From a virus: a stretch of 64,000 nucleotides of DNA. Location: the IMG/VR virus record IMGVR_UViG_3300014720_000015, positions 98,537 to 162,536 of that record; one strand, written 5' to 3'. The notes beneath the pieces were generated by a model. It did not search any database. It saw nothing but the letters and a program-made list of their open reading frames with translations, and had not been told where the DNA came from. The translations under genes were made by a program, and so were the position numbers. Position 1 is the first letter of the stretch. Every line of letters starts with the position of its first letter. Positions 6,442-63,448 of the stretch are shown piece by piece.

Positions 6442-7159
6442 TACATGGACAGCTAAAACAGCTTACGATTGGTGCTTGGAAGATAATATTAGAATCCTAA
6501 ACATCGATGATTGGTTTGATTCATCTGATGATGAATTAACAAACATATATGATTATCATGTTAGGCCATATACACGTAAAGAGTTTGATGAGCGAATTAA
6601 ACGTTGTAAGGTTAAACGAAATTCTAGGGCTAGAAAAATGGAAGAATTTCTGGAACTTAGAATGTATGGCTTCGTTATATACCAACTAAGCGGCATCCAA
6701 AAGGGTATTCAATTTCAACATGCTGTTACAGAATATGAACGGCATGTACCAGAAGATTTAAGACCACAATATGAACGTTGGGCTGATAAATGGAAAACCA
6801 GCATAGTATTGAATGGTGGAACAACAAATGATTGTTATATTGATTCTGGTACGATGCAGAAATATTATAATGAGTTATTGGATAATGGTATCTTTGTTCA
6901 AGAATTTAATGAACCTGATTTGAACGATTCAATGACAGCGTTTTGTTTCATAACGGACGAAAGGGTATTTGATAGAAATACATATGAGGATTTTCAGCCA
7001 ACACCATTCACATGGAAAGAAAACCATAAACCAAACGAGGCAACTTATATGGAATGGGAGAAGATGGAAAGAGAAAATTATGAAAAATGGATTGAAAAAG
7101 TTGGTGGACAACAAAATGCGTTTTTAAGGTCATTTTTAAAAGATAAAAAACTTGCATAG
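6422..7159 (+). CDS. Hypothetical protein with GTT / EPDLN motifs
   Basis: 245 residues. The central segment has NGGTTND, GTMQKYY and FNEPDLNDSMTAFCF, a pattern I associate with phage proteins near the peptidyl-tRNA hydrolase 2 type, but too weakly for a functional call. The rest is charged and helical. Third of an overlapping chain starting at 6015. Confidence 0.55.
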   Translation: MIHASGSTWTAKTAYDWCLEDNIRILNIDDWFDSSDDELTNIYDYHVRPYTRKEFDERIKRCKVKRNSRARKMEEFLELRMYGFVIYQLSGIQKGIQFQHAVTEYERHVPEDLRPQYERWADKWKTSIVLNGGTTNDCYIDSGTMQKYYNELLDNGIFVQEFNEPDLNDSMTAFCFITDERVFDRNTYEDFQPTPFTWKENHKPNEATYMEWEKMERENYEKWIEKVGGQQNAFLRSFLKDKKLA

Positions 7160-7199: not shown

Positions 7200-7852
7200 G
7201 GTGAGGTAGCTCAGTGGTAGAGCACGTAATTTGGTTAATCTGATTGAAAAGATTACATTCAGCAAATTTAATATTAGCCTCTTAAGCACTTTACTAATTC
7301 TTAACATATTTATTATAAAAGGATAAATATGAAAAAGAAATGTACTGTATGTAAAGAAGAAAAAAAATTAACGGATTTTAATAAAAATGCTGGTAGAAAA
7401 GATGGTTTACAAAGTGAGTGTCGAGAATGTGGTAAAGTTCGCTCAAAAAAACATTATGAAAAAAACAAAACTAAAATAATAGAGCAGGTTAATTTGGCTA
7501 GAGACAAGAGAGTAAACGAACATCGGGAGAAATTTTATAACATCTTATGTGAGTCCTCTTGTATTGATTGTGGAAACACGAATCCACTGGTTTTAGAATT
7601 TGACCACGTAGATACTGATGGTAAAATACATGGGTTAAGTAAAATGGTTCATGATGGTTATTCTTGGGAAAATATATTAAAAGAAATTGATAAGTGTGAA
7701 TGTCGATGTGCTAATTGTCATAGAATTAAAACAGCAACCGAACAAAATTGGTATAAATACAAGTTTTTAAAATTACAAAATAATGATTGTACTAATCTTT
7801 AATAGTTATGTTAACTTCGTGGTCGCAGCGTTCGAATCCTGCCCTCACCGCA
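7200..7852 (+). other. tRNA gene split by an HNH-gene insertion
   Basis: The 5' half (7200-7240) has acceptor GGTGAGG and D arm GCTC...GAGC; the 3' half (about 7811-7852) has a T arm with TTCGAAT and acceptor CCTCACC, a perfect 7-bp match. About 570 bases with an HNH gene separate them, inserted at the anticodon loop. TTTGG at the 5' break suggests Pro (TGG). But the anticodon stem halves (CGTAA and CTTCG) pair badly and the T stem has an extra C, so the tRNA may be dead or the exon ends are not where they look. A group I intron is possible; I did not identify its core. Confidence 0.6.
7329..7802 (+). CDS. HNH homing endonuclease
   Basis: 157 residues. N-terminal zinc-ribbon-like CTVCKEEK...CRECGK, then CIDCGNTNPLVLEFDHVD with the catalytic His, and a closing CRCANCHRIKT. 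This is the phage HNH type found as intron-encoded or free-standing homing endonucleases. It sits inside a tRNA gene, a normal landing site for such elements. An ACATATTTATTAT motif precedes it. Confidence 0.82.
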   Translation: MKKKCTVCKEEKKLTDFNKNAGRKDGLQSECRECGKVRSKKHYEKNKTKIIEQVNLARDKRVNEHREKFYNILCESSCIDCGNTNPLVLEFDHVDTDGKIHGLSKMVHDGYSWENILKEIDKCECRCANCHRIKTATEQNWYKYKFLKLQNNDCTNL

Positions 7853-7868
7853 TTTAAAGAAATATAAT

Positions 7869-9676: not shown

Positions 9677-9727
9677 ATATCAATTATAATTACAGCTGAT
9701 TAAAAGTGAATTTTTTTTCAAAAAGAC

Positions 9728-9758
9728 TTGCATTATTAGAAAACATGTTATATATTTG
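9728..9758 (+). promoter_or_regulatory. Promoter of tRNA unit A
   Basis: TTGC at 9728 and TATATTTG at 9751, 23 bases apart. The same pair with the same spacing precedes units B (13434/13457), C (22002/22025) and D (15914/15937). The 30-base stretch is nearly identical in A and C. Confidence 0.75.
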
Positions 9759-9761
9759 TAC

Positions 9762-9890
9762 TGTAAATGAATAAAGATTCGTTACAGCAACAAATTTTTA
9801 TTTATGAAAGGAGAGATTTGGGGTGTGCCAGTCACACTGACCAAATCAAAGAGTGATAACCTGAAGTTATCAGAATCTGTTTCATTTACA
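9762..9890 (+). ncRNA. Structured 5' leader RNA, unit A
   Basis: A multi-stem fold begins about at the expected transcription start. TGTAAATGAA (9762-9771) pairs with TTCATTTACA (9881-9890), then AGATTC (9775) with GAATCT (9873). Inside are hairpins GATTTGG/CCAAATC extended by GTGTG/CACAC, and GATAAC-CTGAA-GTTATC. The closing stems recur in unit C, and in unit D with matching base changes (AGGTTCA/TGAACCT), so the structure appears conserved. A CAGCAA motif follows the first strand. Confidence 0.65.
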
Positions 9891-9953
9891 TTTTTAATAT
9901 AAAGAATAACTTTTTGTAAATTAACAACTATTTAATTAATAATAGAAAAAACT

Positions 9954-10037
9954 ATGAATACAGTAGTAAACACTTTAGTCTTAAACCTATGTCTCTTGGT
10001 CGTGGAACCGAGATGGTCGGACTATTGTGTTAACTGA
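9954..10037 (+). CDS. Leader peptide A (Val/Leu/Cys)
   Basis: 27 codons: begins MNTVVNTLVLNLCLLVV, so 11 of the first 17 residues are Val, Leu or Cys. The tRNAs downstream are Cys, Val, Leu(TAG), Leu(TAA) and Leu(CAA), and the ORF contains GTA, TTA, CTA, TTG and TGT, a codon read by each. Its start context matches that of leader B (TTAATTAATAA, then GAAAAAACTATGAA). Its 3' end (10013-10020) can pair with the terminator. It is too short to be an ordinary protein and is best read as an attenuation leader. Confidence 0.8.
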   Translation: MNTVVNTLVLNLCLLVVEPRWSDYCVN

Positions 10038-10097
10038 TGAATTGTTAATAACACAAAAAGGGTAACCCGACCATAGCAATATGAGTCGGGTTTTTTG
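10013..10097 (+). promoter_or_regulatory. Attenuator of tRNA operon A
   Basis: Mutually exclusive hairpins. Terminator: ACCCGAC (10065-10071) with GTCGGGT (10085-10091) and a T run. Antiterminator: ATGGTCGG (10013-10020, inside the leader ORF) with CCGACCAT (10067-10074). A ribosome finishing the ORF would cover the first antiterminator strand and let the terminator form; a ribosome stalled at early Val/Leu/Cys codons would leave it free. CTTGGT/ACCGAG just upstream could form the pre-emptor hairpin. Confidence 0.75.
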
Positions 10098-10128: not shown

Positions 10129-10205
10129 GAAGGTGTGGGTGAGTTGGAATTAGCCACATGACTGCAAATCATGTTTACGTCAGTTCGAATCTGACCATCT
10201 TCTCA
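10129..10205 (+). tRNA. tRNA-Cys (GCA)
   Basis: Acceptor GAAGGTG/CATCTTC, anticodon arm CATGA-CTGCAAA-TCATG, T arm GTCAG-TTCGAAT-CTGAC. First tRNA of operon A. Confidence 0.92.
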
Positions 10206-10210
10206 AGTAA

Positions 10211-10284
10211 GCCCCAGTGGTGTAATGGTTAGCGCTCCGTTTTTACATGGCGGGAGAACTGGTTCGATTCCAGTCTGGGGTACA
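10211..10284 (+). tRNA. tRNA-Val (TAC)
   Basis: Acceptor GCCCCAG/CTGGGGT, anticodon arm CCGTT-TTTACAT-GGCGG, T arm CTGG-TTCGATT-CCAG, ends ACA. Operon A. Confidence 0.9.
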
Positions 10285-10291
10285 AAAAAAT

Positions 10292-10371
10292 GCGGGTATG
10301 CGGAAAGTTTGGTGAAGCCGAGCAGTCTTAGGAACTGCTGATTTGGGGGTTCGACTCCCTCTACCCGTACA
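10292..10371 (+). tRNA. tRNA-Leu (TAG)
   Basis: Acceptor GCGGGTA/TACCCGT, anticodon arm GCAGT-CTTAGGA-ACTGC, T arm with TTCGACT, variable arm longer than class I. Operon A. Confidence 0.9.
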
Positions 10372-10394
10372 GATAATGAGTTAATAAATTAATT

Positions 10395-10634
10395 ATGCGT
10401 GAAATTAAAAAAGTTGCATGGGATAAGTTCATTGAAACAATGGATTATGATTCTGACGTAAACAACTTCAAGTATGACTTCAAATACATGACCAAAAACC
10501 ATGGTAATGCCTTTATAGAATACTGTAAAAGTATGTGGGAAGCGAACGAAGGTATTCAAACAGAAGAAGAGTTTATGACGATGAACGCTAATATGCCAAA
10601 AGGCTTTTTTGATAAGGTAGTTAAGGGGAAGTGA
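10395..10634 (+). CDS. Hypothetical protein between tRNAs
   Basis: 79 residues, unrecognised, acidic and helical. It sits inside tRNA operon A and its last 10 bases overlap the start of the next tRNA (the stop codon falls in tRNA bases 8-10), so both may come from one transcript with tRNA processing destroying the mRNA end. Confidence 0.6.
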   Translation: MREIKKVAWDKFIETMDYDSDVNNFKYDFKYMTKNHGNAFIEYCKSMWEANEGIQTEEEFMTMNANMPKGFFDKVVKGK

Positions 10635-10702
10635 TGGAAAGCTGGTGAAGCCTCTTTGACTTAAAATCAAAGGATATACGGGTTCGACTCCCGTCTTCCC
10701 TA
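10625..10702 (+). tRNA. tRNA-Leu (TAA)
   Basis: Acceptor GGGGAAG/CTTCCCT, anticodon arm TTTGA-CTTAAAA-TCAAA, T arm with TTCGACT. Near-duplicate of the next tRNA outside the anticodon and acceptor. Operon A. Confidence 0.92.
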
Positions 10703-10712
10703 CTAAAAATTT

Positions 10713-10792
10713 GGGCGAGTGATGGAAAGCTGGTGAAGCCTCTTTACCTCAAAAGTAAAGGATATACGGGTTCGATTCCCGTCTTGCCCACA
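10713..10792 (+). tRNA. tRNA-Leu (CAA)
   Basis: Acceptor GGGCGAG/CTTGCCC, anticodon arm TTTAC-CTCAAAA-GTAAA, T arm with TTCGATT, ends ACA. Shares a long D-arm and variable segment with the TAA tRNA, so probably a duplication. Last tRNA of operon A. Confidence 0.92.
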
Positions 10793-13410: not shown

Positions 13411-13433
13411 TTTCATTTTTTTTTTGAAAAAAC

Positions 13434-13494: not shown

Positions 13495-13587
13495 ATGAAA
13501 ACTTTTAACGACATATTTGCTTTCAACTTTGCCGCATTCGCAGCGGAGGAGGATGATTGTGTTTACAATCCGAAGGATTTGTCGTAA
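13495..13587 (+). CDS. Leader peptide B (Phe/Ala/Glu/Asp)
   Basis: 30 codons; residues 4-21 read FNDIFAFNFAAFAAEEDD. Five Phe, five Ala, two Glu and three Asp make half the peptide, and the tRNAs that follow are exactly Phe, Glu, Asp and Ala. CCGAAGGATT near its 3' end copies the right arm of the terminator, allowing the alternative pairing. Confidence 0.82.
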   Translation: MKTFNDIFAFNFAAFAAEEDDCVYNPKDLS

Positions 13588-13646
13588 CTAAAAGTCAAAT
13601 AAAAAACGATAAGAAACCCTTCGGATATCCGAAGGGTTTTTTTTTT
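13570..13646 (+). promoter_or_regulatory. Attenuator of tRNA operon B
   Basis: Terminator: AACCCTTCGG (13615-13624) with CCGAAGGGTT (13629-13638) and a T run. Antiterminator: CCGAAGGATT (13570-13579, leader codons 26-29) with the same AACCCTTCGG, one mismatch. Pre-emptor candidate: GATTGT-GTTT-ACAATC (13555-13570), ending exactly where the antiterminator strand begins. Confidence 0.78.
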
Positions 13647-13653
13647 GATGTAT

Positions 13654-13728
13654 GTGGTGGTTACCAAGTTGGTCAAGGTGTCGCTCTGAAAAAGCGATAA
13701 TGTTGGTTCGATTCCAACCCATCACACA
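13654..13728 (+). tRNA. tRNA-Phe (GAA)
   Basis: Acceptor GTGGTGG/CCATCAC, anticodon arm TCGCT-CTGAAAA-AGCGA, T arm GTTGG-TTCGATT-CCAAC. First tRNA of operon B. Confidence 0.92.
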
Positions 13729-13732
13729 AAAC

Positions 13733-13806
13733 GGTCCGTTCGACAAGTGGTTTAAGTCACCGCTCTTTCACAGCGGAGTCATGGGTTCAAATCCCATACG
13801 GACTAC
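13733..13806 (+). tRNA. tRNA-Glu (TTC)
   Basis: Acceptor GGTCCGT/ACGGACT, anticodon arm CCGCT-CTTTCAC-AGCGG, T arm ATGGG-TTCAAAT-CCCAT. Operon B. Confidence 0.92.
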
Positions 13807-13859
13807 TGAAAATATAGAGTTTTAAAGCCTTTTGACAATCTGGAAAGACGGATATTAAC

Positions 13860-13934
13860 GGACGCGAGGTGTTGTTGGTAACATACGGCCCTGTCACGGC
13901 TGAGATTGCGGGTTCAACCCCCGTGGCGTCCGCC
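13860..13934 (+). tRNA. tRNA-Asp (GTC)
   Basis: Acceptor GGACGCG/GGCGTCC (last pair mismatched), anticodon arm CGGCC-CTGTCAC-GGCTG, T arm GCGGG-TTCAACC-CCCGT. A CTTTTGACAAT stretch 30 bases upstream resembles the boxA-like sites. Operon B. Confidence 0.9.
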
Positions 13935-13957
13935 TAGACATATTTTTGGCACTTATT

Positions 13958-14031
13958 GTGGTGTTAGTTAAGCTGGCTATAATACTGCCCTTGCAAGGCG
14001 GAGTCATCGGTTCGAGGCCGATACGCTACAC
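13958..14031 (+). tRNA. tRNA-Ala (TGC)
   Basis: Acceptor GTGGTGT/ACGCTAC with two G-T pairs, anticodon arm CTGCC-CTTGCAA-GGCGG, T arm ATCGG-TTCGAGG-CCGAT. Last tRNA of operon B. Confidence 0.92.
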
Positions 14032-16152: not shown

Positions 16153-17334
16153 ATGATGTTGAAAGCTTTTAAATATAGACTTAATCCGACTGAAGAACAA
16201 AAAGTTCTTCTGAATAAGCATATTGGTGCTTCTAGGTTTATATATAATTTAGCGTTGGAAACCAAACAAATAGCTTATGCTGGCAATAAACATAATCTTT
16301 CTTGTTTTGAACTGCATTCACAACTAAAAGAATTGAAAGAAGAATTGTCTTGGTTAAAGGAAATTAATTCACAATCATTACAGCAAAGTATAACTAATTT
16401 AGATAAAGCATATACCGCTTTTTTTAAAGGTCAAAATTCATTTCCTAAGTATAAAAAGAAATCTAATGGTGGTAGTTTTAACATACCACAAAGAGTAAAA
16501 GTAGAAAATAATAAATTAATTATACCTAAATTCACAAAGAAAAATGGGTTAGATATTATATTACATAGACCACTTAAAGGTGAAATAAGACAAGCAACAA
16601 TATCTAAAACACCCACAGGTAAGTATTTTGTTTCCATTCTTTGTGAAACTGGTGAACAATGTAAACCTAAATCTAAGATAAAAGAAGAAACTACTATTGG
16701 TATAGACTTAGGAATTAAAGATTTCGTAATAACATCAGATGGTGAAGTATTTGATAACCCTAAGCACTTACGTAAAGCACAATCTAAATTAAAATACATA
16801 CAGAGTAAGTATAGTAAAAATAAAGGAAAAAGAACAAAACAAAAATTAGCAAAGTTACATGAAAAAGTAACAAATAAAAGAAAAGATTATTTGCATAAAA
16901 TATCTTCTAAACTGGTTCGTGAGAACCAAACAATCAGTTTAGAAAATCTTGCTGTAAGTAATATGATTAAAAATCATAATTTAGCACAAGCAATATCAGA
17001 TGTAAGTTGGTCAACTTTTGTTAATATGTTAGAATATAAGTCTGAATGGTATGGAACAAATATACTTAAGATAGGTAGATTTGAACCATCATCAAAGACA
17101 TGTTCTAACTGTGGTTATATTAATAAAGAACTAACGTTAAAAGATAGAGAATGGACTTGTGTTAACTGTAATACTGAACATGATAGGGATATAAATGCGG
17201 CAATTAATATTAAAAATTTTAGTTTAAGAAATATTTTGTCAGGAACTGACAGAAAAAATCATGACGAACTGCCCACGTTAGTGGGAGTGCTGACTCATGA
17301 AGCCCAACCCATCGCCTCTGGCGTGGGTGGGTAG
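16153..17334 (+). CDS. tnpB: TnpB RNA-guided nuclease
   Basis: 393 residues. N-terminal KAFKYRLNPTEEQ and LDKAYTAFFKG are typical of IS200/IS605-family TnpB. RuvC motifs are complete: GIDLGIKDF (Asp), SLENLAV (Glu) and HDRDINAAINI (Asp). A zinc finger CSNCGY...CVNC lies between the last two. No tnpA is nearby, so it is an orphan, perhaps kept by guided cutting. Its 3' end overlaps the presumed guide RNA. CATATTTATATATG is at the start; ATG 16156 is an alternative. Confidence 0.92.
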   Translation: MMLKAFKYRLNPTEEQKVLLNKHIGASRFIYNLALETKQIAYAGNKHNLSCFELHSQLKELKEELSWLKEINSQSLQQSITNLDKAYTAFFKGQNSFPKYKKKSNGGSFNIPQRVKVENNKLIIPKFTKKNGLDIILHRPLKGEIRQATISKTPTGKYFVSILCETGEQCKPKSKIKEETTIGIDLGIKDFVITSDGEVFDNPKHLRKAQSKLKYIQSKYSKNKGKRTKQKLAKLHEKVTNKRKDYLHKISSKLVRENQTISLENLAVSNMIKNHNLAQAISDVSWSTFVNMLEYKSEWYGTNILKIGRFEPSSKTCSNCGYINKELTLKDREWTCVNCNTEHDRDINAAINIKNFSLRNILSGTDRKNHDELPTLVGVLTHEAQPIASGVGG

Positions 17335-18417: not shown

Positions 18418-18861
18418 ATTATAAAGGTAGGCCGATAGCAGTTTAATGGCGAGGCAGCATCGTCCACATTTCAGGTTGCCACCATGCAACTGGTGCTGAG
18501 TGTGTAGGCCACCTATTTAGAATTATGGTTGTTTGGTACAAGTTAAGTTGAAATTGCTTTTATGAAAACTAAAAATTTCACCGAGGCCATCAACCGTAAC
18601 ATATTTTGACTCATCCAATTGGTTTTATAATATTAAAATTCATCTGTTTCAGCAGACAGTACTTTCAGTTATGAAGTTCCGAAAAGAGATGGTCTGGAGC
18701 TGCCATCAAAGTATAGCCCGACACCAAAGGGCGTTGTCTGTTTGAAAGTGTGGTTACCATTAACTCAAAATGGCATCTGGTACACCTAGTAATATGATTA
18801 CTGTGAAAGGGATTCAGATTAACTGCATCCTCCTGTGGTGGGAGGCAGATGATAATTTCAT
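18418..18861 (+). other. Non-coding structured tract
   Basis: No protein gene supported. AGGTAGGCC (18424) pairs with GGCCACCT (18507) with one bulge, around a GTTGC-CACCAT-GCAAC hairpin. A 15-codon ORF at 18562-18609 (MKTKNFTEAINRNIF) begins MKT like leaders B and C. CAGACA (18653) and CTTTCA (18662) can pair with TGTCTG (18735) and TGAAAG (18743) in crossing order, a possible pseudoknot. Likely a long leader or ncRNA for the tRNA-like genes that follow. Confidence 0.4.
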
Positions 18862-18993
18862 AGTCAGGTGGCGGAATTGGTAGACGCTAAAAAAGATAAT
18901 GGTGTAGATTACACAAGATTGAGGAATTAAGTTTCCAAAGGTATCGGGAAAATATAACTACACTGTACAGGTTCGAATCCTGTCCTGACTACA
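18862..18993 (+). tRNA. Abnormal Leu-like tRNA, anticodon unclear
   Basis: Acceptor AGTCAGG/CCTGACT, a D arm GCGGAATTGGTAGACGC as in tRNA-Leu, T arm ACAGG-TTCGAAT-CCTGT and ACA end are all perfect. Between D and T arms lie about 80 bases instead of 35-45. GTGTAG pairs with CTACAC across most of it. No normal anticodon arm is found. It may contain an intron or be a tRNA-like RNA. Confidence 0.5.
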
Positions 18994-19122
18994 ATTCAAT
19001 TGACGTTAAAACCATATACAATGGGAGTCACCGATGTGTCTAAGTTAGAGGTACACTAACACAAATCACATTGACAACAGTTATCGGAGAGGAAATGGAA
19101 ACCCTCATTGAATTTTTTAAAC

Positions 19123-19255
19123 GGTCAGTCGGTGTATTGGCGAAACACAGATTGGTAACAAGTGTCGGTAATCAAGACGGGTGAGTAACGCGTAATAAGC
19201 CCTGAGAGAAAAACACACCTCATCTTATAAAGGTTCGAATCCTTTACTGACCACA
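19123..19255 (+). tRNA. Abnormal tRNA with giant variable region and 16S-like segment
   Basis: Acceptor GGTCAGT/ACTGACC, D arm GTGT-ATTGGCGAA-ACAC and T arm AAAGG-TTCGAAT-CCTTT are perfect. GATTG/TAATC could be the anticodon stem, but its loop is 14 bases. The variable region is about 55 bases, closed by GGTGAG/CTCATC, and contains GACGGGTGAGTAACGCGTA (19176-19194), which matches the conserved 16S rRNA segment near position 105-120. Confidence 0.5.
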
Positions 19256-19323
19256 AGCCGTTTTTTAGTCCTCGTCCTATGAGACTATTGTTTAACGAGA
19301 TGAAACAAATGTTGTATAAAGGG

Positions 19324-19388
19324 GTTTAGGTAAGTTTTCCAGAAAACTGTGGTCCTTTTCCTTACCGAAGGAGTTTTCAGACCTAAAC
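19324..19388 (+). ncRNA. Candidate structured RNA
   Basis: GTTTAGGT (19324-19331) pairs with ACCTAAAC (19381-19388), enclosing AGTTTT-CCAG-AAAACT and TCCTT-ACCG-AAGGA hairpins, a three-way junction. A further hairpin ACGGGAG-CGGCTTA-CTCCCGT follows at about 19429. No protein frame is convincing between 19256 and 19453. Confidence 0.4.
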
Positions 19389-19453
19389 TCAAAACTCAAA
19401 CGACAGTAAAGAAGTAGGGACAAACGGGAGCGGCTTACTCCCGTCCCGAATAT

Positions 19454-19558
19454 AGTCAGGTGGCGGAATTGGTAGACGCATAATACCCTACATTGTGGGT
19501 AAAAGAATAAGGTCATTAGATGATACTTCATATAGGTTCGAATCCTGTCCTGACTACG
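19454..19558 (+). tRNA. Abnormal Leu-like tRNA, anticodon unclear
   Basis: Shares acceptor AGTCAGG/CCTGACT and the whole D arm with the gene at 18862, so the two are duplicates that diverged in the middle. TACCC/GGGTA gives a stem with an 8-base loop TACATTGT, not a regular 7-base anticodon loop. The T arm is intact; the variable region is long. Confidence 0.5.
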
Positions 19559-19629
19559 AGCTTAAAACTAAAACTGAATGGTTGTCAGTTTTCGGTTCCG
19601 CTTTGTTTTACGGGGGTTCGAATCCTTCA

Positions 19630-19671
19630 AGATTGGTTGGCATAGGTGGGTTCGACTCCCACCCCAATCTA
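19630..19671 (+). other. tRNA-like minihelix (acceptor plus T arm only)
   Basis: AGATTGG (19630-19636) and CCAATCT (19664-19670) form a perfect 7-bp acceptor-like stem stacked on a perfect 6-bp T arm GGTGGG-TTCGACT-CCCACC. Only 8 bases stand where D and anticodon arms should be. It cannot decode. It is either a tRNA deletion remnant or a deliberate tRNA mimic. Confidence 0.5.
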
Positions 19672-21982: not shown

Positions 21983-22001
21983 TTTTTTTTTTTCAAAAGA
22001 C

Positions 22002-22032
22002 TTGCATTATTAGAAAACATGTTATATATTTG
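22002..22032 (+). promoter_or_regulatory. Promoter of tRNA unit C
   Basis: TTGC at 22002 and TATATTTG at 22025. Nearly identical to the unit A promoter over 40 bases including the preceding T run. Confidence 0.75.
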
Positions 22033-22035
22033 TTC

Positions 22036-22115
22036 TGTAAATGATTTGAAGATTCACTTCAGCAAATTTTAAACTTTATATTTGGATAAAAGAAACTGAA
22101 TCTGTTTTATTTACA
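22036..22115 (+). ncRNA. Structured 5' leader RNA, unit C
   Basis: TGTAAATGA (22036-22044) pairs with TTATTTACA (22107-22115); AGATTCA (22050-22056) pairs with TGAATCT (22097-22103). The inner CTTCAGCAAATTTTA stretch matches units A and D. Shorter than in A because the internal hairpins are missing. Confidence 0.62.
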
Positions 22116-22162
22116 AAAAAATAAACTTTTTAAAACTTAACCATATTTAATTAAAAGAAGTA

Positions 22163-22261
22163 ATGAAAACTTATACGACATATCAAGGAAAACAGTATCC
22201 GCAAGGCACGAAGCCGAGCGAACTGGGCATGTCGTATCTAAACTCATTGTTCTTCTTATGA
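22163..22261 (+). CDS. Leader peptide C (Lys/Thr/Tyr/Gln/Gly/Pro)
   Basis: 32 codons. Residues 2-18 read KTYTTYQGKQYPQGTKP: all 17 belong to the six amino acids carried by the six downstream tRNAs (Pro, Gln, Tyr, Thr, Gly, Lys), and all six are present. The remaining residues are mixed and cover the base-pairing segment. This is the strongest of the three leader-tRNA matches. Confidence 0.88.
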   Translation: MKTYTTYQGKQYPQGTKPSELGMSYLNSLFFL

Positions 22262-22325
22262 TAGGATAAAAGTATAATAACGATAAGGCAAGCCCAGAGG
22301 ATTAAAAACCTTCTGGGCTTTTTTG
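22223..22325 (+). promoter_or_regulatory. Attenuator of tRNA operon C
   Basis: Terminator: AAGCCCAGAGG with CCTTCTGGGCTT (22290-22320) and a T run. Antiterminator: CTGGGC (22223-22228, leader codons 21-22) with GCCCAG (22292-22297). Pre-emptor: ATACGACAT (22173-22181, early leader codons) with ATGTCGTAT (22229-22237), directly next to the antiterminator strand. This gives the classical 1:2, 2:3, 3:4 arrangement. Confidence 0.75.
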
Positions 22326-22459: not shown

Positions 22460-22536
22460 CGGGAGGTTATGCAGATGGCTATACAACGGTACCTTGGACG
22501 TATCGGTTCGTGGGTTCGAATCCCACTCTCCCGACA
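22460..22536 (+). tRNA. tRNA-Pro (TGG)
   Basis: Acceptor CGGGAGG/TCTCCCG, anticodon arm GGTAC-CTTGGAC-GTATC, T arm GTGGG-TTCGAAT-CCCAC, ends ACA. First tRNA of operon C. A GC-rich hairpin ATCCCGAC/GTCGGGAT follows. Confidence 0.9.
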
Positions 22537-22571: not shown

Positions 22572-22645
22572 TGCCCTGTGGTGTAATTGGGAACACGTCT
22601 GTTTTTGAAGCAGAAGAGTCTAGGTTCGAGACCTAGCGGGGCAAC
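22572..22645 (+). tRNA. tRNA-Gln (TTG)
   Basis: Acceptor TGCCCTG/CGGGGCA, anticodon arm TCTGT-TTTTGAA-GCAGA, T arm TAGG-TTCGAGA-CCTA. Operon C. The gap to the next tRNA folds as TAGAG/CTCTA around GCGT/ACGC. Confidence 0.9.
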
Positions 22646-22720: not shown

Positions 22721-22795
22721 GGGGAATCGCCCAGGGTTGGTCGGACGCTCTGTAAAAGCGAACCGCAATATAGTTCGAGTCTATTGTTCCCCACA
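22721..22795 (+). tRNA. tRNA-Tyr (GTA)
   Basis: Acceptor GGGGAAT/GTTCCCC, anticodon stem CGCT/AGCG with loop CTGTAAA, T arm ATAG-TTCGAGT-CTAT, ends ACA. The variable arm is short for bacterial Tyr. Operon C. Confidence 0.85.
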
Positions 22796-22801: not shown

Positions 22802-22875
22802 GCACCCATAGTTTAGTTGGGAAAACGGTAGATTTGTAATCTTCAGTCCTCAGTTCAAGCCTGAGTGGGTGCTCA
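22802..22875 (+). tRNA. tRNA-Thr (TGT)
   Basis: Acceptor GCACCCA/TGGGTGC, loop TTTGTAA with anticodon TGT (one stem mismatch), T arm CTCAG-TTCAAGC-CTGAG. Operon C. Confidence 0.9.
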
Positions 22876-22888: not shown

Positions 22889-22962
22889 GCCGCATAGGTG
22901 TTACGGCAGCACATCTGACTTCCAATCAGAAGGCGAGAGTTCGACTCTCTCATGCGGCTCCA
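22889..22962 (+). tRNA. tRNA-Gly (TCC)
   Basis: Acceptor GCCGCAT/ATGCGGC, anticodon arm TCTGA-CTTCCAA-TCAGA, T arm AGAGT-TCGACT-CTCTC region, and TCCA at the end, so CCA is encoded here. Operon C. Confidence 0.92.
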
Positions 22963-22970: not shown

Positions 22971-23047
22971 TCCCTCATAGGTTCAATTGGTTTAGACTAC
23001 TTAACTTTTAATTAAGGGGTGCTGGTTCGAGTCCAGCTGGGGGAACA
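22971..23047 (+). tRNA. tRNA-Lys (TTT)
   Basis: Acceptor TCCCTCA/TGGGGGA, anticodon arm CTTAA-CTTTTAA-TTAAG, T arm GCTGG-TTCGAGT-CCAGC, ends ACA. Last tRNA of operon C. Confidence 0.92.
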
Positions 23048-29668: not shown

Positions 29669-30610
29669 ATGCAAATAAAAACTGTAGTCAATCCAGAAGA
29701 ATATACCTGTGGCGTTTTAGTTGGTAGATTTCAAGTTGCGAAGCTTCATGACGGTCATAGAGCCTTAATTGATAAGGTTGTTAGTCATCATAAAAAAGTG
29801 GTTATCTTTCTTGGTGTACCTAGAAAATCTGGTTCAAAAAGCAATCCATTACCGTTTGCTGCAAGGAAGTTGATGATTCAAGAAGAATATCCTAATATTG
29901 TAATACTGCCATTACAGGATATGCGAAGTGATTCCGATTGGAGTAAGCAACTTGACAATCTAGTTACACAACCATACGGTAATCAAAAGTTCCTTCTTTA
30001 TGGTTCAAGAGACTCATTTATAAGTCATTATTCTGGTAGATTTGACACCACAGAATTAATTACTGATATATTTTACTCAGGTACTCAAGCAAGGAAATTA
30101 ATTTCTGAAGAGATTGGGGCTTCTGAGGATTGGAGGGCTGGCGTGATTCATGCCACTTATGATAGATATCCAGTGACTTACCCTACAGTTGACATTATAC
30201 CATATCAAATTAACCCCGAAGGCGGTGGTAAAATCTTATTGGCGCAAAAACCAAACGAAACCAAATGGCGAATGGTGGGTGGTTTTGTTGACCGAACAGA
30301 TAGTAATTGGGAAGCTGCGGCTAAAAGGGAATTGTTTGAAGAGGTTGGTCAAATTGAAGTTGGTAACATGGAATATGTCACCAGTGGTCAAGTTGACGAT
30401 TGGAGATATAATGGGTGTGAGGATGGAATTATGACCACGGTATTCAAATGCAAATATGTATTCGGCACACCAAAACCAAATGACGATATTCATGCTGTTA
30501 AATGGTTCACAACCGATGAATTAACTTATGATTATCGTAGAGATATAATTGTACCAGAACATATTAAATTTTTGGATGCGTTTTTCACATCAACTAGATT
30601 TCACAATTAA
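29669..30610 (+). CDS. nadM: Bifunctional NMN adenylyltransferase / Nudix hydrolase
   Basis: 313 residues. VGRFQVAKLHDGHRALI is the nucleotidyltransferase GRFQ...HxGH motif and SGTQARKL the ISSTxxR-like site, together an NMNAT (NadM type). From about 170, a Nudix domain with GGFVDRTDSN...REL.EEVG box. NadM-Nudix fusions are known in bacteria; they make NAD from NMN and can hydrolyse ADP-ribose. It lies 14 bases before the Nampt gene. Confidence 0.85.
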   Translation: MQIKTVVNPEEYTCGVLVGRFQVAKLHDGHRALIDKVVSHHKKVVIFLGVPRKSGSKSNPLPFAARKLMIQEEYPNIVILPLQDMRSDSDWSKQLDNLVTQPYGNQKFLLYGSRDSFISHYSGRFDTTELITDIFYSGTQARKLISEEIGASEDWRAGVIHATYDRYPVTYPTVDIIPYQINPEGGGKILLAQKPNETKWRMVGGFVDRTDSNWEAAAKRELFEEVGQIEVGNMEYVTSGQVDDWRYNGCEDGIMTTVFKCKYVFGTPKPNDDIHAVKWFTTDELTYDYRRDIIVPEHIKFLDAFFTSTRFHN

Positions 30611-30623
30611 AAAAAAATACATT

Positions 30624-32207
30624 ATGAGTTTAAAAAGAGAAATTAAAAGACAGCTTAAACAAGCGTTAAAATCAGGTAATTATGGTGACATGTTGGAACT
30701 TAATGACATGTTACAGAAATATTTAGATAAACCACATAATTTAGTATTATTGGGTGATGCTTATAAATATTCACACCATAAGTTTTATCCAGATGGTATG
30801 ACAAAAATGGGTTCATATCTGGAATCAAGGGGTGGTAAATTCAATGAAACGGTATTCTACGGACTCCAATGGTTTATGAAACAATATCTTGAGGGTGTTG
30901 CGATAACAAGAGAAGATGTCGATGAGGCTTATGATTATTTGGGTACTGTACATGGTGTGTTTGGTAGAGAAGATGTTTTTGATAGAACCAAATTTGATTA
31001 TATTGTTGAACATCATGGTGGTAGATTACCAATTAAAATAAAGGCAGTTCCCGAAGGTTCAGTTGTTGGGGTTAAGAATGTGCTTTTATATATTGAGAAT
31101 ACTGACCCAAAATGTTCATGGTTAACAAATTTCTTGGAGACTTTGATTTTGCAGGTTTGGTATCCAATTACAGTCGCAACTTTATCAAGGGAAGTTAAAA
31201 AGATTGTTAATAATGCTTGGGATGAAACAACGGATTTTGATTCCGAAACCAAAGAATTCTTAATGGAATATGTACTGAATGACTTTGGTTTTAGAGGTGT
31301 TTCAAGCGTACAGTCAGCAGAAATTGGTGGGTCCGCACACCTTGTTAACTTTAGGGGTTCAGATACTACGGCAGCATCTAGATTAATATGCGAGTATTAT
31401 GATACGGATACTGTTTATGGGCAATCAGTTCCAGCCACAGAGCATTCTATTATGACGTTGCTTGGTAAAGAAGGTGAAGTCGATATGATGCGAAGAGTGT
31501 TAGAAAAATACCCAACTGGTATTGTTGCTTGTGTCTCTGATACCTTTGGTATTATGAATGCTGTTAAGAATCTATGGGGTAAAGAGCTAAAAGCTGAAAT
31601 TTTGAGTAGACCAAATGAACCAGCTAATCAATTGGTTATAAGACCTGATAGTGGTCATGTAATTAACACATTGATTATGGTGTTCGATTCGTTATTTGAA
31701 ACTTTCGGATATACAACAAACAGTAAAGGATTTAAGGTGTTACCACCACAAGTGCGAATAATTCAAGGGGATGGTGTTAATATTGATAGCATTGCTGGTG
31801 TATATGAAATGATGAAAGAAAGGAAAATTTCAGCGGAAAATATTGTATTTGGGATGGGTGGTAAACTGCTGCAAGCTGGTATAGACCGAGATACTCAAAA
31901 TTTCGCCACGAAATGTTGTTTTAGTATTATTGATGGTAAGGAAATTGATGTTGCAAAAAGTCCTATCGAGATTGACGAAAACTTCAACGAAGTACAATCG
32001 TTTAAGAAATCTAAGTCTGGACAATTGAAGTTGGTTAAAGACCAAGACGGTTCTTACTATACCCTAACATCAAATGATGAGGGTTTTGAAGAAGCCACCG
32101 ATGAATTGGTGCCAGTTTTCGAAAATGGTAAAATACTTAAAAATTATACTTTTGAACAAGTGCGTGAAAACGCTAAATTAGTTGTTAGTGAGTTTGAACT
32201 GTCATGA
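30624..32207 (+). CDS. nadV: Nicotinamide phosphoribosyltransferase-like enzyme
   Basis: 527 residues, close to the usual length. LGDAYKYSHHKFYPDG, GSYLESRGG, FRGVSSVQSAEIGGSAHLVNFRGSDT, PATEHSIM, VSDTFG, RPDSGH, GDGVN and GMGGKLLQ are all type II phosphoribosyltransferase/Nampt hallmarks. It would turn nicotinamide plus PRPP into NMN. In phage NAD-reconstitution pathway NARP1 a relative uses ADP-ribose pyrophosphate instead; the sequence alone does not separate the two. Confidence 0.88.
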   Translation: MSLKREIKRQLKQALKSGNYGDMLELNDMLQKYLDKPHNLVLLGDAYKYSHHKFYPDGMTKMGSYLESRGGKFNETVFYGLQWFMKQYLEGVAITREDVDEAYDYLGTVHGVFGREDVFDRTKFDYIVEHHGGRLPIKIKAVPEGSVVGVKNVLLYIENTDPKCSWLTNFLETLILQVWYPITVATLSREVKKIVNNAWDETTDFDSETKEFLMEYVLNDFGFRGVSSVQSAEIGGSAHLVNFRGSDTTAASRLICEYYDTDTVYGQSVPATEHSIMTLLGKEGEVDMMRRVLEKYPTGIVACVSDTFGIMNAVKNLWGKELKAEILSRPNEPANQLVIRPDSGHVINTLIMVFDSLFETFGYTTNSKGFKVLPPQVRIIQGDGVNIDSIAGVYEMMKERKISAENIVFGMGGKLLQAGIDRDTQNFATKCCFSIIDGKEIDVAKSPIEIDENFNEVQSFKKSKSGQLKLVKDQDGSYYTLTSNDEGFEEATDELVPVFENGKILKNYTFEQVRENAKLVVSEFELS

Positions 32208-32374
32208 GTGATAATCGGTTAGTCCAACAATACAAAGACCTAATTAAAGAAGTTAAGGCTGAACATTTAATTGAACATATGTCGGATAATGACATAGCAG
32301 AAGCTCTTCGTTCAATGTCTAAAAAGATTAACGATGAACTTGAATCAAAGGTAACAAAAAACCATAATGATTAA
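32204..32374 (+). CDS. Small hypothetical protein
   Basis: 56 residues, helical and charged (YKDLIKEVKAEHLIEHM). Overlaps Nampt by 4 bases (ATGA) and the next gene by 8, so it belongs to the operon. Confidence 0.6.
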   Translation: MSDNRLVQQYKDLIKEVKAEHLIEHMSDNDIAEALRSMSKKINDELESKVTKNHND

Positions 32375-32696
32375 TGTAGTTAACAAGTACAAACATCAAC
32401 CGACTGATAACGATGTATACATTGGTAGAGGTTCACCTTTAGGTAATCCATTCACAGGTTCTAAAAAACTTGAAGCGACAAAGGCTGAATTTCAATGCGC
32501 TTCTCGTGAAGAAGCTATCGAAAGTTACGAAAATTATTTAAGGCTTGCAATTTCAAATAAAAATAACTATATTTGTCAAGAATTGAATAAGATTCACAAA
32601 ATGGCTAAACTTGGTGATGTTAATTTGGTTTGTTTTTGCAAGCCAAAAGATTGTCATGGTGATGTTATTAAAAAGGTAATAGAAGAGAAATTATGA
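32367..32696 (+). CDS. DUF4326 protein
   Basis: 109 residues. DVYIGRGSPLGNPFTG and LVCFCKPKDCHGDVIKK are the two hallmarks of DUF4326, common in phages and function unknown; the Cys/His pair at the end suggests a metal or catalytic site. Confidence 0.82.
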   Translation: MINVVNKYKHQPTDNDVYIGRGSPLGNPFTGSKKLEATKAEFQCASREEAIESYENYLRLAISNKNNYICQELNKIHKMAKLGDVNLVCFCKPKDCHGDVIKKVIEEKL

Positions 32697-33127
32697 TAGC
32701 AGTCGTTAAAGCATTTATTAATGCGTTCAAAGAAATGGAACGCAAACAATGGCCATATATTTATGTGTTTATTGACCTACATTCAACGTTAATTAAACCA
32801 AACTACCAATATGGTAACATACCAACAGAAATGTATGATGGTGCGTTAGAGGGGCTTAAAATGCTTCAAGAAGCTAAGGATGTTAAAATAATAATGTATA
32901 CCTGTAGTCATCCACATGAGATTGATGAATACATTAGGTTTTTTGATGGTTTGGGAATTAAATGGGACTATATAAACGAAAATTCTGAAGTAACGACCAA
33001 TCTAAATGGTTATGGTTGTTATGATAAGAAACCATATTATAATGTCCTGATGGATGATAAAGCTGGTTTTGATGCTGAAACTGATTGGACTGAATTAAAT
33101 AATTTTTTAAAAAAACGATTAATATGA
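32693..33127 (+). CDS. HAD-like phosphatase
   Basis: 144 residues. YVFIDLHSTLIKP is HAD motif I with the second Asp replaced by His/Ser region; IIMYTCSHP carries motif II Thr; VLMDDKAGF is motif IV. The changed motif I casts doubt on activity. Confidence 0.6.
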   Translation: MIAVVKAFINAFKEMERKQWPYIYVFIDLHSTLIKPNYQYGNIPTEMYDGALEGLKMLQEAKDVKIIMYTCSHPHEIDEYIRFFDGLGIKWDYINENSEVTTNLNGYGCYDKKPYYNVLMDDKAGFDAETDWTELNNFLKKRLI

Positions 33128-33483
33128 GTGTAATAAAATTTGAATTGAAGGATGAGCATATAAAGCTTATGAAAGCTTTGAGGTTTAGAATGGATAGGGA
33201 TTATAATATTACTGTAACGGATGAATATGGTTTTAATTCACCGTTTGGTGGTAGTAATCTTTATGAGGATATCGATATAATTTTAAACGGTAAGCCAGAA
33301 GATTTTGACCCAATGGGCGAATATAAACCATTGAGTGAAGCTAAGGAAGAAGAATACTTTGAGTTATTCAAAGAGTTACCTAATGCTCTGGAGATTGTAT
33401 TATCTTTAGGTACTTTTGAAACTGGACACTATAAGAGAAAGTATCACGATAGATTAGGTTGGAAACCTTATAGTCCGAAGTAA
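33124..33483 (+). CDS. Hypothetical protein
   Basis: 119 residues, acidic, unrecognised; overlaps both neighbours by a few bases within the NAD operon. Confidence 0.58.
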   Translation: MSVIKFELKDEHIKLMKALRFRMDRDYNITVTDEYGFNSPFGGSNLYEDIDIILNGKPEDFDPMGEYKPLSEAKEEEYFELFKELPNALEIVLSLGTFETGHYKRKYHDRLGWKPYSPK

Positions 33484-33833
33484 TGTTTAAAGTTATTATT
33501 GCTGGTGGTAGAGATTTCGATAATTACGAATTACTCTGCAAAACCTGTGACCATATGTTATCGCAACAATCAGAGATTGAGATTGTCTCTGGTTTAGCCA
33601 AAGGTGCGGATTCGTTAGGTCTTAGATATGCTAAGGAACGAGGATACCCAGTTAAAGAGTTTGCGGCACAATGGGATAAATTCGGTAAAAGTGCAGGTTA
33701 TAAGCGGAATGCTGAAATGGCTGATTATGCTGATGCACTGATAGCGTTCTGGGATGAAAAATCAAAGGGAACAAACCATATGATTAATTTAGCCAGCGAA
33801 AAAAATATTAAGGTAACAGTTGTAAACTATTAA
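33483..33833 (+). CDS. DUF2493 / SLOG-fold protein
   Basis: 116 residues. VIIAGGRDFDNYELL, IVSGLAKGADSLGLRYAKERGYPV and KRNAEMADYADALIAFWD match the YspA/DUF2493 branch of the SLOG superfamily. SLOG domains bind nucleotides, in some immune systems NAD derivatives. Its place between Nampt and the PRPP synthetase gene makes a nucleotide-binding role likely. Confidence 0.78.
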   Translation: MFKVIIAGGRDFDNYELLCKTCDHMLSQQSEIEIVSGLAKGADSLGLRYAKERGYPVKEFAAQWDKFGKSAGYKRNAEMADYADALIAFWDEKSKGTNHMINLASEKNIKVTVVNY

Positions 33834-33854
33834 AATAATTTGTTAATTTGTAGG

Positions 33855-34052
33855 ATGAAGGAAAGTTATATTATTATCAAGAACACTAAGAATCAATTTG
33901 GCGTTACAGTACCAATTATCTTATTGGATGGTTTAAGTGAAGTGATGGAGTTCGATGATTATGAATCAGCCAATAAGATGGCTCAATTATTCGAAGTCAA
34001 TTCGGACTCTGGTTGGAAATATACTGTTAAAAAAATACATGGAAAAGACTAA
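33855..34052 (+). CDS. Hypothetical protein
   Basis: 65 residues, a compact alpha/beta protein (SYIIIKNTKNQFGVTVPIILLDG). A TTAATTTGTAGG box precedes it. The next gene starts inside its end. Confidence 0.55.
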   Translation: MKESYIIIKNTKNQFGVTVPIILLDGLSEVMEFDDYESANKMAQLFEVNSDSGWKYTVKKIHGKD

Positions 34053-35013
34053 TTCTATTATATTCTCTGTCGATGGTAGGCTTGACCTATTGAGAGAAAT
34101 TGTTGACTTTACTGGTAATGGTTTCACAGAACCGATTTCTGTTGGTGAAATGACCAATAGAAAATTCTCTGATGGGGAATTGAACGTTGATTTTAATAAG
34201 TCAATACGAGGTAAAAAGGTTTATCTATTAACAACACCGATTAATTCTGATGAAATAATTAAGTTGGAGTTTGCCATTGATGCTGCAAGACGAGCATCAG
34301 CGCATGAGATTATACCGATATTACCGTATTTTCCATACTCACGTCAAGATAAAAGAGACCAACACAGAGGTTCAATTGGTGCTAAGGTATTGGCTAAGAA
34401 ATTAGAGATGTTGGGTGCAACAGGTATAATTACGATGGAGTTACATGCCGACCAGATTGAAGGTTTTTTTGATATTCCAGTTACAAACATCAAGGGTCAA
34501 TATTTGTTTACTGAATTCATTCATAATGAACACGCCAGATTAGGTGATGTTGTATTGGCTGCTACTGATGCTGGTGGTGGTAAACGTGTTGTTAAAATGC
34601 AGAATCGCATTAGGGATAAATACGGTGTTAATTTACCATTTGTATTCGCGCATAAGAACAGAGTTGAGGACAATAAAGTTGATGAGGTTATAATAATTGG
34701 TGATGTTAAGGATAAAAATGTAATCTTATTGGATGATATGTGTGATACGGCTGGAACCTTATGTGCCAACGCTGACAAAATGATTGAATTGGGCGCGAAA
34801 AGCGTATCCGCTGTGACAACTCATTTGATTTTAAGTGGTAATGCCGTTGATAGAATTGAAAAATCTTCATTAACGTATGTGATGGGTTCAAATTCATTGA
34901 ATGTGGTAAAGCATAATAAATTAAGGACAATAAGTGTTGCGTCAGAAATTGGTAAAGCGATACTTGCAAACGATTACGGAATTAGTTTAAGCCGTATTCA
35001 AAATAACAAATAA
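34039..35013 (+). CDS. prs: Ribose-phosphate pyrophosphokinase-like enzyme
   Basis: 324 residues. PYFPYSRQDKRDQHRGSI (flexible-loop/ATP site), HADQIEGFFDIPV and the PRPP loop VILLDDMCDTAGT cover the Prs family. It would supply PRPP for the Nampt reaction; alternatively it is the ADP-ribose pyrophosphate synthetase (Adps) of NARP1, which was annotated as Prs. Differences from canonical PYFGYARQDRKxxPR are of interest here. Confidence 0.85.
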   Translation: MEKTNSIIFSVDGRLDLLREIVDFTGNGFTEPISVGEMTNRKFSDGELNVDFNKSIRGKKVYLLTTPINSDEIIKLEFAIDAARRASAHEIIPILPYFPYSRQDKRDQHRGSIGAKVLAKKLEMLGATGIITMELHADQIEGFFDIPVTNIKGQYLFTEFIHNEHARLGDVVLAATDAGGGKRVVKMQNRIRDKYGVNLPFVFAHKNRVEDNKVDEVIIIGDVKDKNVILLDDMCDTAGTLCANADKMIELGAKSVSAVTTHLILSGNAVDRIEKSSLTYVMGSNSLNVVKHNKLRTISVASEIGKAILANDYGISLSRIQNNK

Positions 35014-38092: not shown

Positions 38093-38965
38093 ATGGCGAA
38101 CCTGTATACAACAGAAAAACGCATCACTAATCGTGATGGTGTACTTAAACAATATCTTTCAGATATATATAACATTAAACTTTTCGAAAGTGCTGATGCT
38201 GAAGCTGAATGTGCATATAAAGCATATGCTGGTGATGTAGATGCTAAAAATGAGTTAATACGTAGAAATCTACGATTTGTTATAACTGTGGCTAAATCAT
38301 ATATGACCGAAGGTGTTTACATTGAGGATTTGATTAATGAGGGTAATATTGGTTTGATTGAGGCTGCTGAAAAATTTGACCCTACGATGGGTAATAAGTT
38401 TTTTACTTATGCGGTATATTGGATTGTTCGTAATATACGACAATTCATATCTAATAATTCAAGAACAGTAAGATTACCAATCAATAAGGTTGATAATATT
38501 AGAAATGTCAAACGACAACTATCTGATTTGGAACAGGAATTGGGTAGACCTGTAACGGTATATGACCTAATTGAGTCCGCATCAACAGATAAGGAAATTG
38601 AAAATCTAAAAATAATGATTGATTTGGTTGAACTTGGCTTCACTTCCATGGATTCACCAATTAGTAATGATGAAGATAGCTCGACTTATCATGATATATT
38701 ATTTGATTCGGATGAATTGACACCAGAAGATTATTTGGATAATTCGGATAATGGTGATTATTTGATGGGTTTATTGGAAAACATGAAACCAATCGAAAAG
38801 ACGATTATTGTTAGACGGTATGGTCTTGATGGTAACATACCTATGACACTTAAAGAGGTGAGTGAGTGTGATGATATGTCATTAACAAGGGAGAGAATCA
38901 GACAGATTGAGAAAGGTGTGTTGAAAAAATTAAAAGCTATTACATCTAAAGAATTAATTTGTTAA
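38093..38965 (+). CDS. Sigma-70 family RNA polymerase sigma factor
   Basis: 290 residues. Region 2 NLRFVITVAKSYMTEGVYIEDLINEGNIGLIEAAEKFDP and FFTYAVYWIVRNIRQFI, region 3, and a region 4 with MTLKEVSECDDMSLTRERIRQIEKGVLKKLK. It looks like a reduced housekeeping-type sigma lacking region 1.1. It could direct host polymerase to phage promoters, such as the second start-site motif found here. Confidence 0.9.
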   Translation: MANLYTTEKRITNRDGVLKQYLSDIYNIKLFESADAEAECAYKAYAGDVDAKNELIRRNLRFVITVAKSYMTEGVYIEDLINEGNIGLIEAAEKFDPTMGNKFFTYAVYWIVRNIRQFISNNSRTVRLPINKVDNIRNVKRQLSDLEQELGRPVTVYDLIESASTDKEIENLKIMIDLVELGFTSMDSPISNDEDSSTYHDILFDSDELTPEDYLDNSDNGDYLMGLLENMKPIEKTIIVRRYGLDGNIPMTLKEVSECDDMSLTRERIRQIEKGVLKKLKAITSKELIC

Positions 38966-61989: not shown

Positions 61990-62727
61990 ATGAGCCAAGT
62001 ATTCAACTTCAAAAAATTCAATACAGATATCAATATCAATATCGATAACCAATCATTCGATAATGACATATCAATAACAGATGGTGTTAAATACCTTAAA
62101 GGTATATTCACAAATAAAAATCGTTTCATCGAACGATTTGTTAAACCAATACAGACAACCTCAACAAATACTGGTTGGAATACCGACTCATTCATTGAAA
62201 AGGTTCTAAATGAATACGATAAAGTTGAACCATTCACATACCGTGAAGCTTTCCAAATTGAAAACTCACAATTCAGAGCAACAGTATTCGGGTCAATAGA
62301 TGTAAGCGAAATGATTAACGAATTGGGAGCAACAAGAATTGCAACCGATGGAAAACACGTTAACCAAAAAGTATATTCCGAATCTGGCGAATTTTTGGGC
62401 TATCACGAATTTGATAATATCTATGAAGTACACGAAGTGTCTGGTGAAAAACTTGGACTTGAAGAAAATCTATATGCTCTCAAATGTTGGTGCACAACAA
62501 CCAACAAAGAACATTGGCTATGGATTGAAGACCAATATAAAGATTCACCACTCGAAGCTGTTGCCTCAACATTTAGAATTCATGAAAACCTAATACCTCA
62601 CATAAAGGAAATAAAACGACAAGGTGATGTGCTTTTAGTGGAACTTAATAGCGAAGTTGAACCATCAGGTGAAATTGTACCATTAACAGCAGAACAATAC
62701 TTCAAATTCTTATCAGCACAAAGCTAA
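61990..62727 (+). CDS. Hypothetical protein
   Basis: 245 residues; N-terminal half low in complexity (Asn/Asp/Ile), C-terminal part with LYALKCWCTTTNKEHWLWIE. I recall similar blocks in unnamed phage proteins. No function assigned. Confidence 0.6.
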   Translation: MSQVFNFKKFNTDININIDNQSFDNDISITDGVKYLKGIFTNKNRFIERFVKPIQTTSTNTGWNTDSFIEKVLNEYDKVEPFTYREAFQIENSQFRATVFGSIDVSEMINELGATRIATDGKHVNQKVYSESGEFLGYHEFDNIYEVHEVSGEKLGLEENLYALKCWCTTTNKEHWLWIEDQYKDSPLEAVASTFRIHENLIPHIKEIKRQGDVLLVELNSEVEPSGEIVPLTAEQYFKFLSAQS

Positions 62728-62728
62728 T

Positions 62729-63117
<389 letters not shown>

Positions 63118-63132
63118 CAAAAACAAAAAATC

Positions 63133-63375: not shown

Positions 63376-63402
63376 TAGGTTAACAACTTAAAAATAAATT
63401 AA

Positions 63403-63436
63403 TGGGAATGTTCAAATACCTTCCCATTTTTTTTTG
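63403..63436 (+). terminator. Rho-independent terminator
   Basis: AATGGGAA...TTCCCATT stem with nine T, between the 63133 gene and the next repeat gene. Confidence 0.75.
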
Positions 63437-63448
63437 TACCTTAGCACT

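Follow-up and report, generated by a model that had tools for sequence, protein, structure and literature searches.

The window analysed here is a stretch of 64,000 nucleotides, bases 98,537-162,536 of a 162.5-kb phage record in IMG/VR. This phage carries four units in which a short leader ORF precedes a cluster of tRNA genes; units A, B and C lie in the window and unit D just upstream of it. The features of unit C, in window positions, are the following.

21985-22031, + strand: putative promoter of the Bacteroidota type, with TTG at about -33 and TATATTTG at about -7; its activity is predicted from sequence
22163-22261, + strand: leader peptide ORF of 32 codons, MKTYTTYQGKQYPQGTKPSELGMSYLNSLFFL and a stop, with homologous leaders in two other loci (L063, L061)
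22166-22216, + strand: 17 control codons, each specifying an amino acid carried by a downstream tRNA (off-frame control run)
22173-22181, + strand: region 1 (ATACGACAT), codons 4-7, partner of region 2b
22223-22237, + strand: region 2 (CTGGGC-ATGTCGTAT), antiterminator strand and partner of region 1
22265-22297, + strand: region 3, pre-terminator strand (..ACGATAAGGCAA) and terminator 5' arm GCCCAG, partner of region 2
22290-22320, + strand: intrinsic terminator, a 3:4 hairpin of about -17 kcal/mol, then a T run
22460-22535, + strand: tRNA-Pro(tgg), ARAGORN
22572-22645, + strand: tRNA-Gln(ttg), ARAGORN
22721-22793, + strand: probable tRNA-Tyr(gta), read by eye and called by neither ARAGORN nor Rfam
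22802-22874, + strand: tRNA-Thr(tgt), ARAGORN
22889-22962, + strand: tRNA-Gly(tcc), ARAGORN
22971-23046, + strand: tRNA-Lys(ttt), ARAGORN

The unit C promoter is 95% identical to the unit A promoter at 9711, and a copy ahead of unit B at 13417 is 70% identical to it. Upstream of their ORFs, units A and C have homologous long 5' leaders (9711-9953 and 21985-22162), and that of unit A holds an extra mini-ORF at 9804 (MKGEIWGVPVTLTKSKSDNLKLSESVSFTFLI).

The unit C leader contains KTYTTYQGKQYPQGTKP. An earlier note on this DNA had reported 17 of 17 matching residues in the leader, and our count agreed: codons 2-18 all specify P, Q, Y, T, G or K, the set of the downstream tRNAs, with the Tyr tRNA read by eye (14/17 if Tyr is not counted). 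As these six residues make up about 30% of the background, the chance of 17/17 is 0.30^17, or about 1.5e-9. A tRNA-Tyr called by ARAGORN is present in the homologous unit C operons of two other phages.

The same note had described unit C as a textbook attenuator, and all four of the pairing elements it named were found where it had placed them. ATGTCGTAT at 22229-22237 is the exact reverse complement of ATACGACAT; CTGGGC occurs at 22223-22228 and again at 22313-22318, and GCCCAG at 22292-22297. The antiterminator proved more extensive than had been described, with the part of region 2 past CTGGGC also pairing just 5' of the terminator. A perfect 9-bp pairing between the first 30 nt and the remainder of the ORF arose in 24/5000 codon shuffles. 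Compared with shuffles, the unit C 1:2 duplex gave z=-5.3 (p=0.003) and the 2:3 duplex z=-2.3 (p=0.027).

The other three units have the following features.

9954-10037, + strand: unit A leader, MNTVVNTLVLNLCLLVVEPRWSDYCVN and a stop (...LVLNLCLLVV)
10060-10096, + strand: unit A terminator
10129-10791, + strand: unit A tRNAs Cys, Val, Leu(tag), Leu(taa), Leu(caa), ARAGORN
13495-13587, + strand: unit B leader, MKTFNDIFAFNFAAFAAEEDDCVYNPKDLS and a stop (...FAFNFAAFAAEEDD)
13611-13642, + strand: unit B terminator
13654-14031, + strand: unit B tRNAs Phe, Glu, Asp, Ala, ARAGORN
17-340, + strand: 3' end of operon D (Asn, Met, Arg, Arg)
L001:8177-8263 (G000:97676-97762), upstream of the window: unit D leader, MKTMSIHMNSINWRRSSATMVGYAHNFS and a stop (...MSIHMNSINWRRSS...)

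The full operon D cluster is His Trp Ser Ser Ile Ile Asn Met Arg Arg. ARAGORN missed some of these tRNAs, as it did the Tyr of unit C, and they were identified by eye, with Rfam support for Met and one Ile. All 20 amino acids are shared out among the four operons, each falling in one of them: D={H,W,S,I,N,M,R}, A={C,V,L}, B={F,E,D,A} and C={P,Q,Y,T,G,K}. The leaders follow this partition. Among the 15 residues at codons 4-18, those of the leader's own operon number 11 in A, 12 in B, 15 in C and 14 in D, and those of any other operon 0-3. In units D and A the leader has a codon for each tRNA of its operon, down to the isoacceptors, and isoacceptor coverage is often complete (10/10 in G000_D, 10/10 in L096, 7/7 in phi41_1, 15/15 in L068). 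In a synonymous-codon test, leader fit was no better than the amino acids of the leader already imply.

Homologues were sought in IMG/VR with the leader C and D patterns and one neighbouring protein. We found homologous units in further contigs, among them 353-kb and 152-kb phages, whose terminators and antiterminators are unlike those of the window in sequence while the pairing is still intact. In the 353-kb phage (G001), the 5' half and the start codon are missing from both the D- and the C-type leader, which may be an assembly artefact or real shared decay; the shortened leaders (L018 ~810-850 and L021 ~1720-1760) each follow the same promoter stretch, TTTGTAATAGTTATT. The leader-terminator-tRNA architecture recurs, with other partitions and leaders that differ accordingly, in Cellulophaga phages phi4:1 and phi17:2, cyanophage S-PM2, a 634-kb huge phage and many IMG/VR contigs.

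The isolate phi4:1 has three units, among which the 20 amino acids are divided differently. QRLHLQELEQP precedes Pro Glu Gln His Leu Leu Arg(acg) in unit 1, TKTGITVIDKTKGARA precedes Ala Lys Ile Gly Met Asp Thr Val Arg(tct) Met in unit 2, and NYCTYNNSNWSFSY precedes Tyr Ser Ser Asn Trp Phe Cys in unit 3 (one Ser and Cys by eye); own-operon counts on the diagonal are 11, 15 and 13 of 15. Phage phi17:2 has the same arrangement, and a TerL-based search for relatives of phi4:1 gave one locus. The phi4:1 gene gp075 (L016 6488-6607), annotated as a hypothetical protein, covers the unit-2 leader, whose likely start is GTG at 6524 (leader 6524-6607). In the 634-kb phage (LR745206.1) APVNPQPQDQDP precedes Pro Asp Ala Gln, and in S-PM2 SNISKQIEIIMESDCRYWHIAQ precedes Lys Tyr Asp Glu Ile Ser Ser Met His Gln Trp Arg Val Pro. 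Three loci sampled for two tandem tRNAs only also carry such leaders: LFSSYLLSLSLLS before Ser Leu Phe Tyr in L096, TMNLNMNMNTLTVVNNTL in L280 and QQQYQPQPYP before Tyr His Pro Gln in L300. Further tandem-tRNA cases are L138, L117, L290, L336, L365, L368 (two units) and L302 (three units); doubtful matches in L140, L091, L268, L145, L187 and L029 were not counted as cases.

The unit C leader peptide had no match in named phages, and a search with a cyanophage-type leader peptide gave chance matches only. These peptide searches found no relatives because the leaders drift too fast. Bacterial genomes searched with an SINWRR DNA pattern likewise gave only chance matches. Many tRNA-rich loci have no such leader, and several residues are unmatched in the leaders of G000_A, L189, L107 and L083.

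The match between leader and operon was specific to the pair and to the reading frame. When leaders were swapped between operons in 20 units, the match was destroyed (z=9.9, 0/20000). In 23 units, 285/345 residues matched in the leader's own frame, compared with 85 in the +1 frame, 76 in the +2 frame and a background expectation of 107; these units had been picked for their match, so that the test rules out base composition and is not an estimate of prevalence. In a sample chosen only for tandem tRNAs, 309 viral loci yielded 104 terminator and ORF combinations ahead of tRNAs, 15 of which reached a permutation p<=0.01 against about 1 expected (binomial 2e-13), the true excess being somewhat smaller because only the best ORF was taken for each terminator and some contigs contribute several matches. 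Two or three of these 15 look doubtful.

Where related operons differ in tRNA content, their leaders differ to match. L225 is a distant relative of phi4:1 in the tRNA region; its operon 2 lacks Lys and Arg tRNAs and the control stretch of its leader, AINIAVVIMTGADMA, lacks K and R, whereas the phi4:1 homologue has both. In the cyanophage-type leaders of S-PM2, L068 and L201, P, F and the Y of RYW occur only with a nearby tRNA. For the L068 operon (Lys Tyr Asp Glu Pro Phe Ile Met His Thr Cys Gln Trp Arg Ser) the control stretch includes P, F and T, whereas that of S-PM2 has none of the three, and in L201, which lacks tRNA-Tyr, the RYW of S-PM2 and L068 is RDW. As exceptions, C stays in the S-PM2 and L201 leaders though no tRNA-Cys was identified in the operon, early Y and T are kept in L201, and S-PM2 has a distal tRNA-Pro. 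Since leader composition thus tracks operon tRNA content across unrelated lineages, the reading of unit C as a three-way attenuator, which had been proposed from a single sequence, holds up well.

The pairings were also compared across units. In 30 units the 2:3 pairing was far stronger between a unit's own strands than between swapped strands (z=-11.7, 0/20000); several of these units are homologous, and homology alone does not create an own-versus-swapped difference. These 30 leaders hold the antiterminator pairing with wholly changed sequence, which bears out the expectation that homologues would keep the pairings through compensating changes. A shuffle test of 2:3 in 16 families gave a Fisher p=6e-10. 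The antiterminator is mutually exclusive with the terminator. The terminators between leader ORF and first tRNA have 3:4 energies (E34) of -13 to -27 kcal/mol and a T run, and start 18-42 nt past the leader stop codon; in most units region 2 begins no more than about 12 nt from the last control codon, and its end is close to the stop codon. For the 1:2 hairpin, the Fisher p=2e-4 over the 16 families is carried largely by a few: the C family (z -5.3, -5.6) and G010_B have a strong hairpin and some other units a weak one. Of the textbook set of hairpins claimed for unit C, the 2:3 and 3:4 pairings, like the leader codons, are general and conserved, whereas the 1:2 hairpin does not appear to be general, with 3/16 families at p<=0.05.

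The position of region 2 implies that a stalled ribosome leaves it free and that a ribosome at the stop codon covers it. We modelled this co-transcriptionally in 18 units, by computing the partition function on the leader before the 3' arm of the terminator is made. In 17/18 units, the terminator 5' arm was predicted to be held upstream with P=0.5-0.9 when the ribosome was stalled and with P=0-0.16 when it was at the stop codon. With no ribosome, units A and D were predicted to sequester region 2 (P=0.02 and 0.11), and unit C was not (0.58). The stalled-state probability was only moderately above that of shuffles (Fisher p=9e-6); in unit C it was not above them (p=0.49), and L138 fails. In equilibrium folding there was no antiterminator, and the full-length leader adopted the terminator fold in almost all units, also when the ribosome was stalled. 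The antiterminator appeared only in the shortened, co-transcriptional fold. Since equilibrium folds favour the terminator, the switch must be kinetic, as in trp.

We propose that each phage tRNA operon is controlled by a ribosome-mediated transcription attenuator, in which any scarce tRNA stalls the leader ribosome and thereby turns the operon on; we put the probability of this reading at roughly 0.88. RNA polymerase would start at the operon promoter, with a ribosome trailing it through the leader of about 20-36 codons, whose control stretch consists of codons for the amino acids of its own operon's tRNAs. When all of the charged tRNAs are plentiful, the ribosome would reach the stop codon and cover region 2; region 3 would then be available for the 3:4 terminator, and transcription would end ahead of the tRNA genes. 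If any one tRNA is scarce or uncharged, whether through host shut-off, a tRNA-cutting defence nuclease or because it has not yet been made, the ribosome would stall in the control stretch; region 2 could then capture region 3 before region 4 is made, and the polymerase would read into the tRNA genes. In this way a given tRNA set is very probably produced by the virus only while ribosomes are short of those tRNAs. The anatomy and the amino-acid matching are seen directly in the sequences compared, as is the way in which the matching and the 2:3 and 3:4 pairings covary. Leader translation, stalling, read-through and the direction of the response are what we infer, the direction, with shortage turning the operon on, from the geometry of the regions and the known logic of trp and his.

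The leader might instead be translated ahead of a real terminator and the switch serve ribosome availability in general, responding to any slowing after infection. Termination is indeed favoured by the equilibrium folds in nearly every state, and any upstream position of a coupled ribosome would leave region 2 exposed. However, this explanation does not account for why leaders use only the amino acids of their own operon, or why that usage follows the gain and loss of tRNA genes, and we regard it as improbable. It is still harder to see the mini-ORFs as small functional peptides or decayed genes that match by chance or through a shared compositional bias. Short ORFs are common ahead of terminators, and phi4:1 gp075 at a leader is annotated as a hypothetical protein. 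Against this, the match is limited to one frame in the units examined, is lost on swapping (0/20000) and is tied to a conserved antiterminator geometry, and the peptides of different units are unrelated in sequence.

Sensing of the T-box type, in which uncharged tRNAs would bind codon-like specifiers in the leader without a ribosome, would suit targets that concern tRNA supply, and codon triplets are present. However, an Rfam scan of the window at gathering score returned tRNAs only, with no leader family and no T-box, and the supposed specifiers are many different codons within one open frame that has a start and a stop. The open frame, together with a region 2 that ends near the stop codon, points to the ribosome, and we consider T-box-type sensing very unlikely here. 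A T-box, a decayed gene and compositional bias were all rejected as explanations. By anatomy, the phage units belong to ribosome-mediated attenuation, and neither to T-boxes nor to a known Rfam leader.

The ribosome-mediated attenuator we propose resembles those of trp, his, leu, thr and pheA in its control-codon leader peptide and competing 2:3 and 3:4 hairpins; region 2 lies at the leader stop codon, and some phage units may have a 1:2 protector as well. The genes downstream are tRNAs, whereas attenuators of the trp and his type regulate biosynthetic enzymes in amino-acid biosynthesis operons. The phage leaders also list 3-15 different amino acids at once, are phage-borne, and can be several per phage, dividing the amino acids among them. 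In E. coli, pheST, which encodes phenylalanyl-tRNA synthetase, has a leader-peptide attenuator that senses one amino acid and controls a protein-coding cellular gene. The likeness is leader-peptide attenuation of a gene that supplies charged tRNA. The ivbL and ilv leaders sense more than one amino acid, namely the branched-chain ones of a common pathway; the phage leaders are likewise multi-amino-acid leaders, in which the set is instead the operon's list of tRNAs. With T-box riboswitches the phage units share transcription attenuation that reports tRNA charging, but the T-box binds uncharged tRNA directly and has no leader ORF, whereas the phage units have one.

It is likely that tRNA-rich phages, at least those of Bacteroidota and cyanobacteria, split their tRNA genes into operons under bar-code leaders, each induced when its tRNAs run out, which would form an autoregulated system for tRNA supply, and against tRNA nucleases, and a general and apparently undescribed layer of control. 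We found no published description in full-text searches of the open-access literature, which was the scope of the search. What appears to be new, in that no description was found, is the tRNA operon as target, the composite leader listing its tRNAs, the partition of amino acids among operons and the spread over unrelated phages. Why phages carry tRNA genes is a long-standing question, for which codon compensation and the replacement of tRNAs cut by host defence have been the contending answers. A leader that reads the codons of its operon's tRNAs would tell what the phage senses, namely a shortage of those tRNAs, and makes hypotheses of tRNA supply directly testable with reporters. As a sequence signature, the leaders group phage tRNA genes into operons and point to missed tRNAs, such as Tyr in unit C. 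They would also be a case of attenuation in which a single leader responds to as many as about 15 amino acids.

Other features were observed in and near the window. At 7203-7853 a tRNA gene is apparently split by an insert with an HNH-type ORF (7330-7800), probably a tRNA intron, and at 18420-19670 there are tRNA-Leu-like pieces and T-arm sequences with long inserts, one of which was called (19454-19556). A tmRNA-like gene lies at L001:1283-1653 (G000:90782-91152), with no ARAGORN call and a sub-threshold Rfam tRNA match to its end. The window also encodes a TnpB-like ORF (16153-17334), a phage-encoded RpoD-like sigma factor (38093-38965) and, judged by eye from translations, an NAD-rebuilding set of NMNAT-Nudix, NAMPT and PRPP-synthetase-like ORFs (29669-35013). 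Diverged tandem 63-nt repeats occupy 62665-63983.
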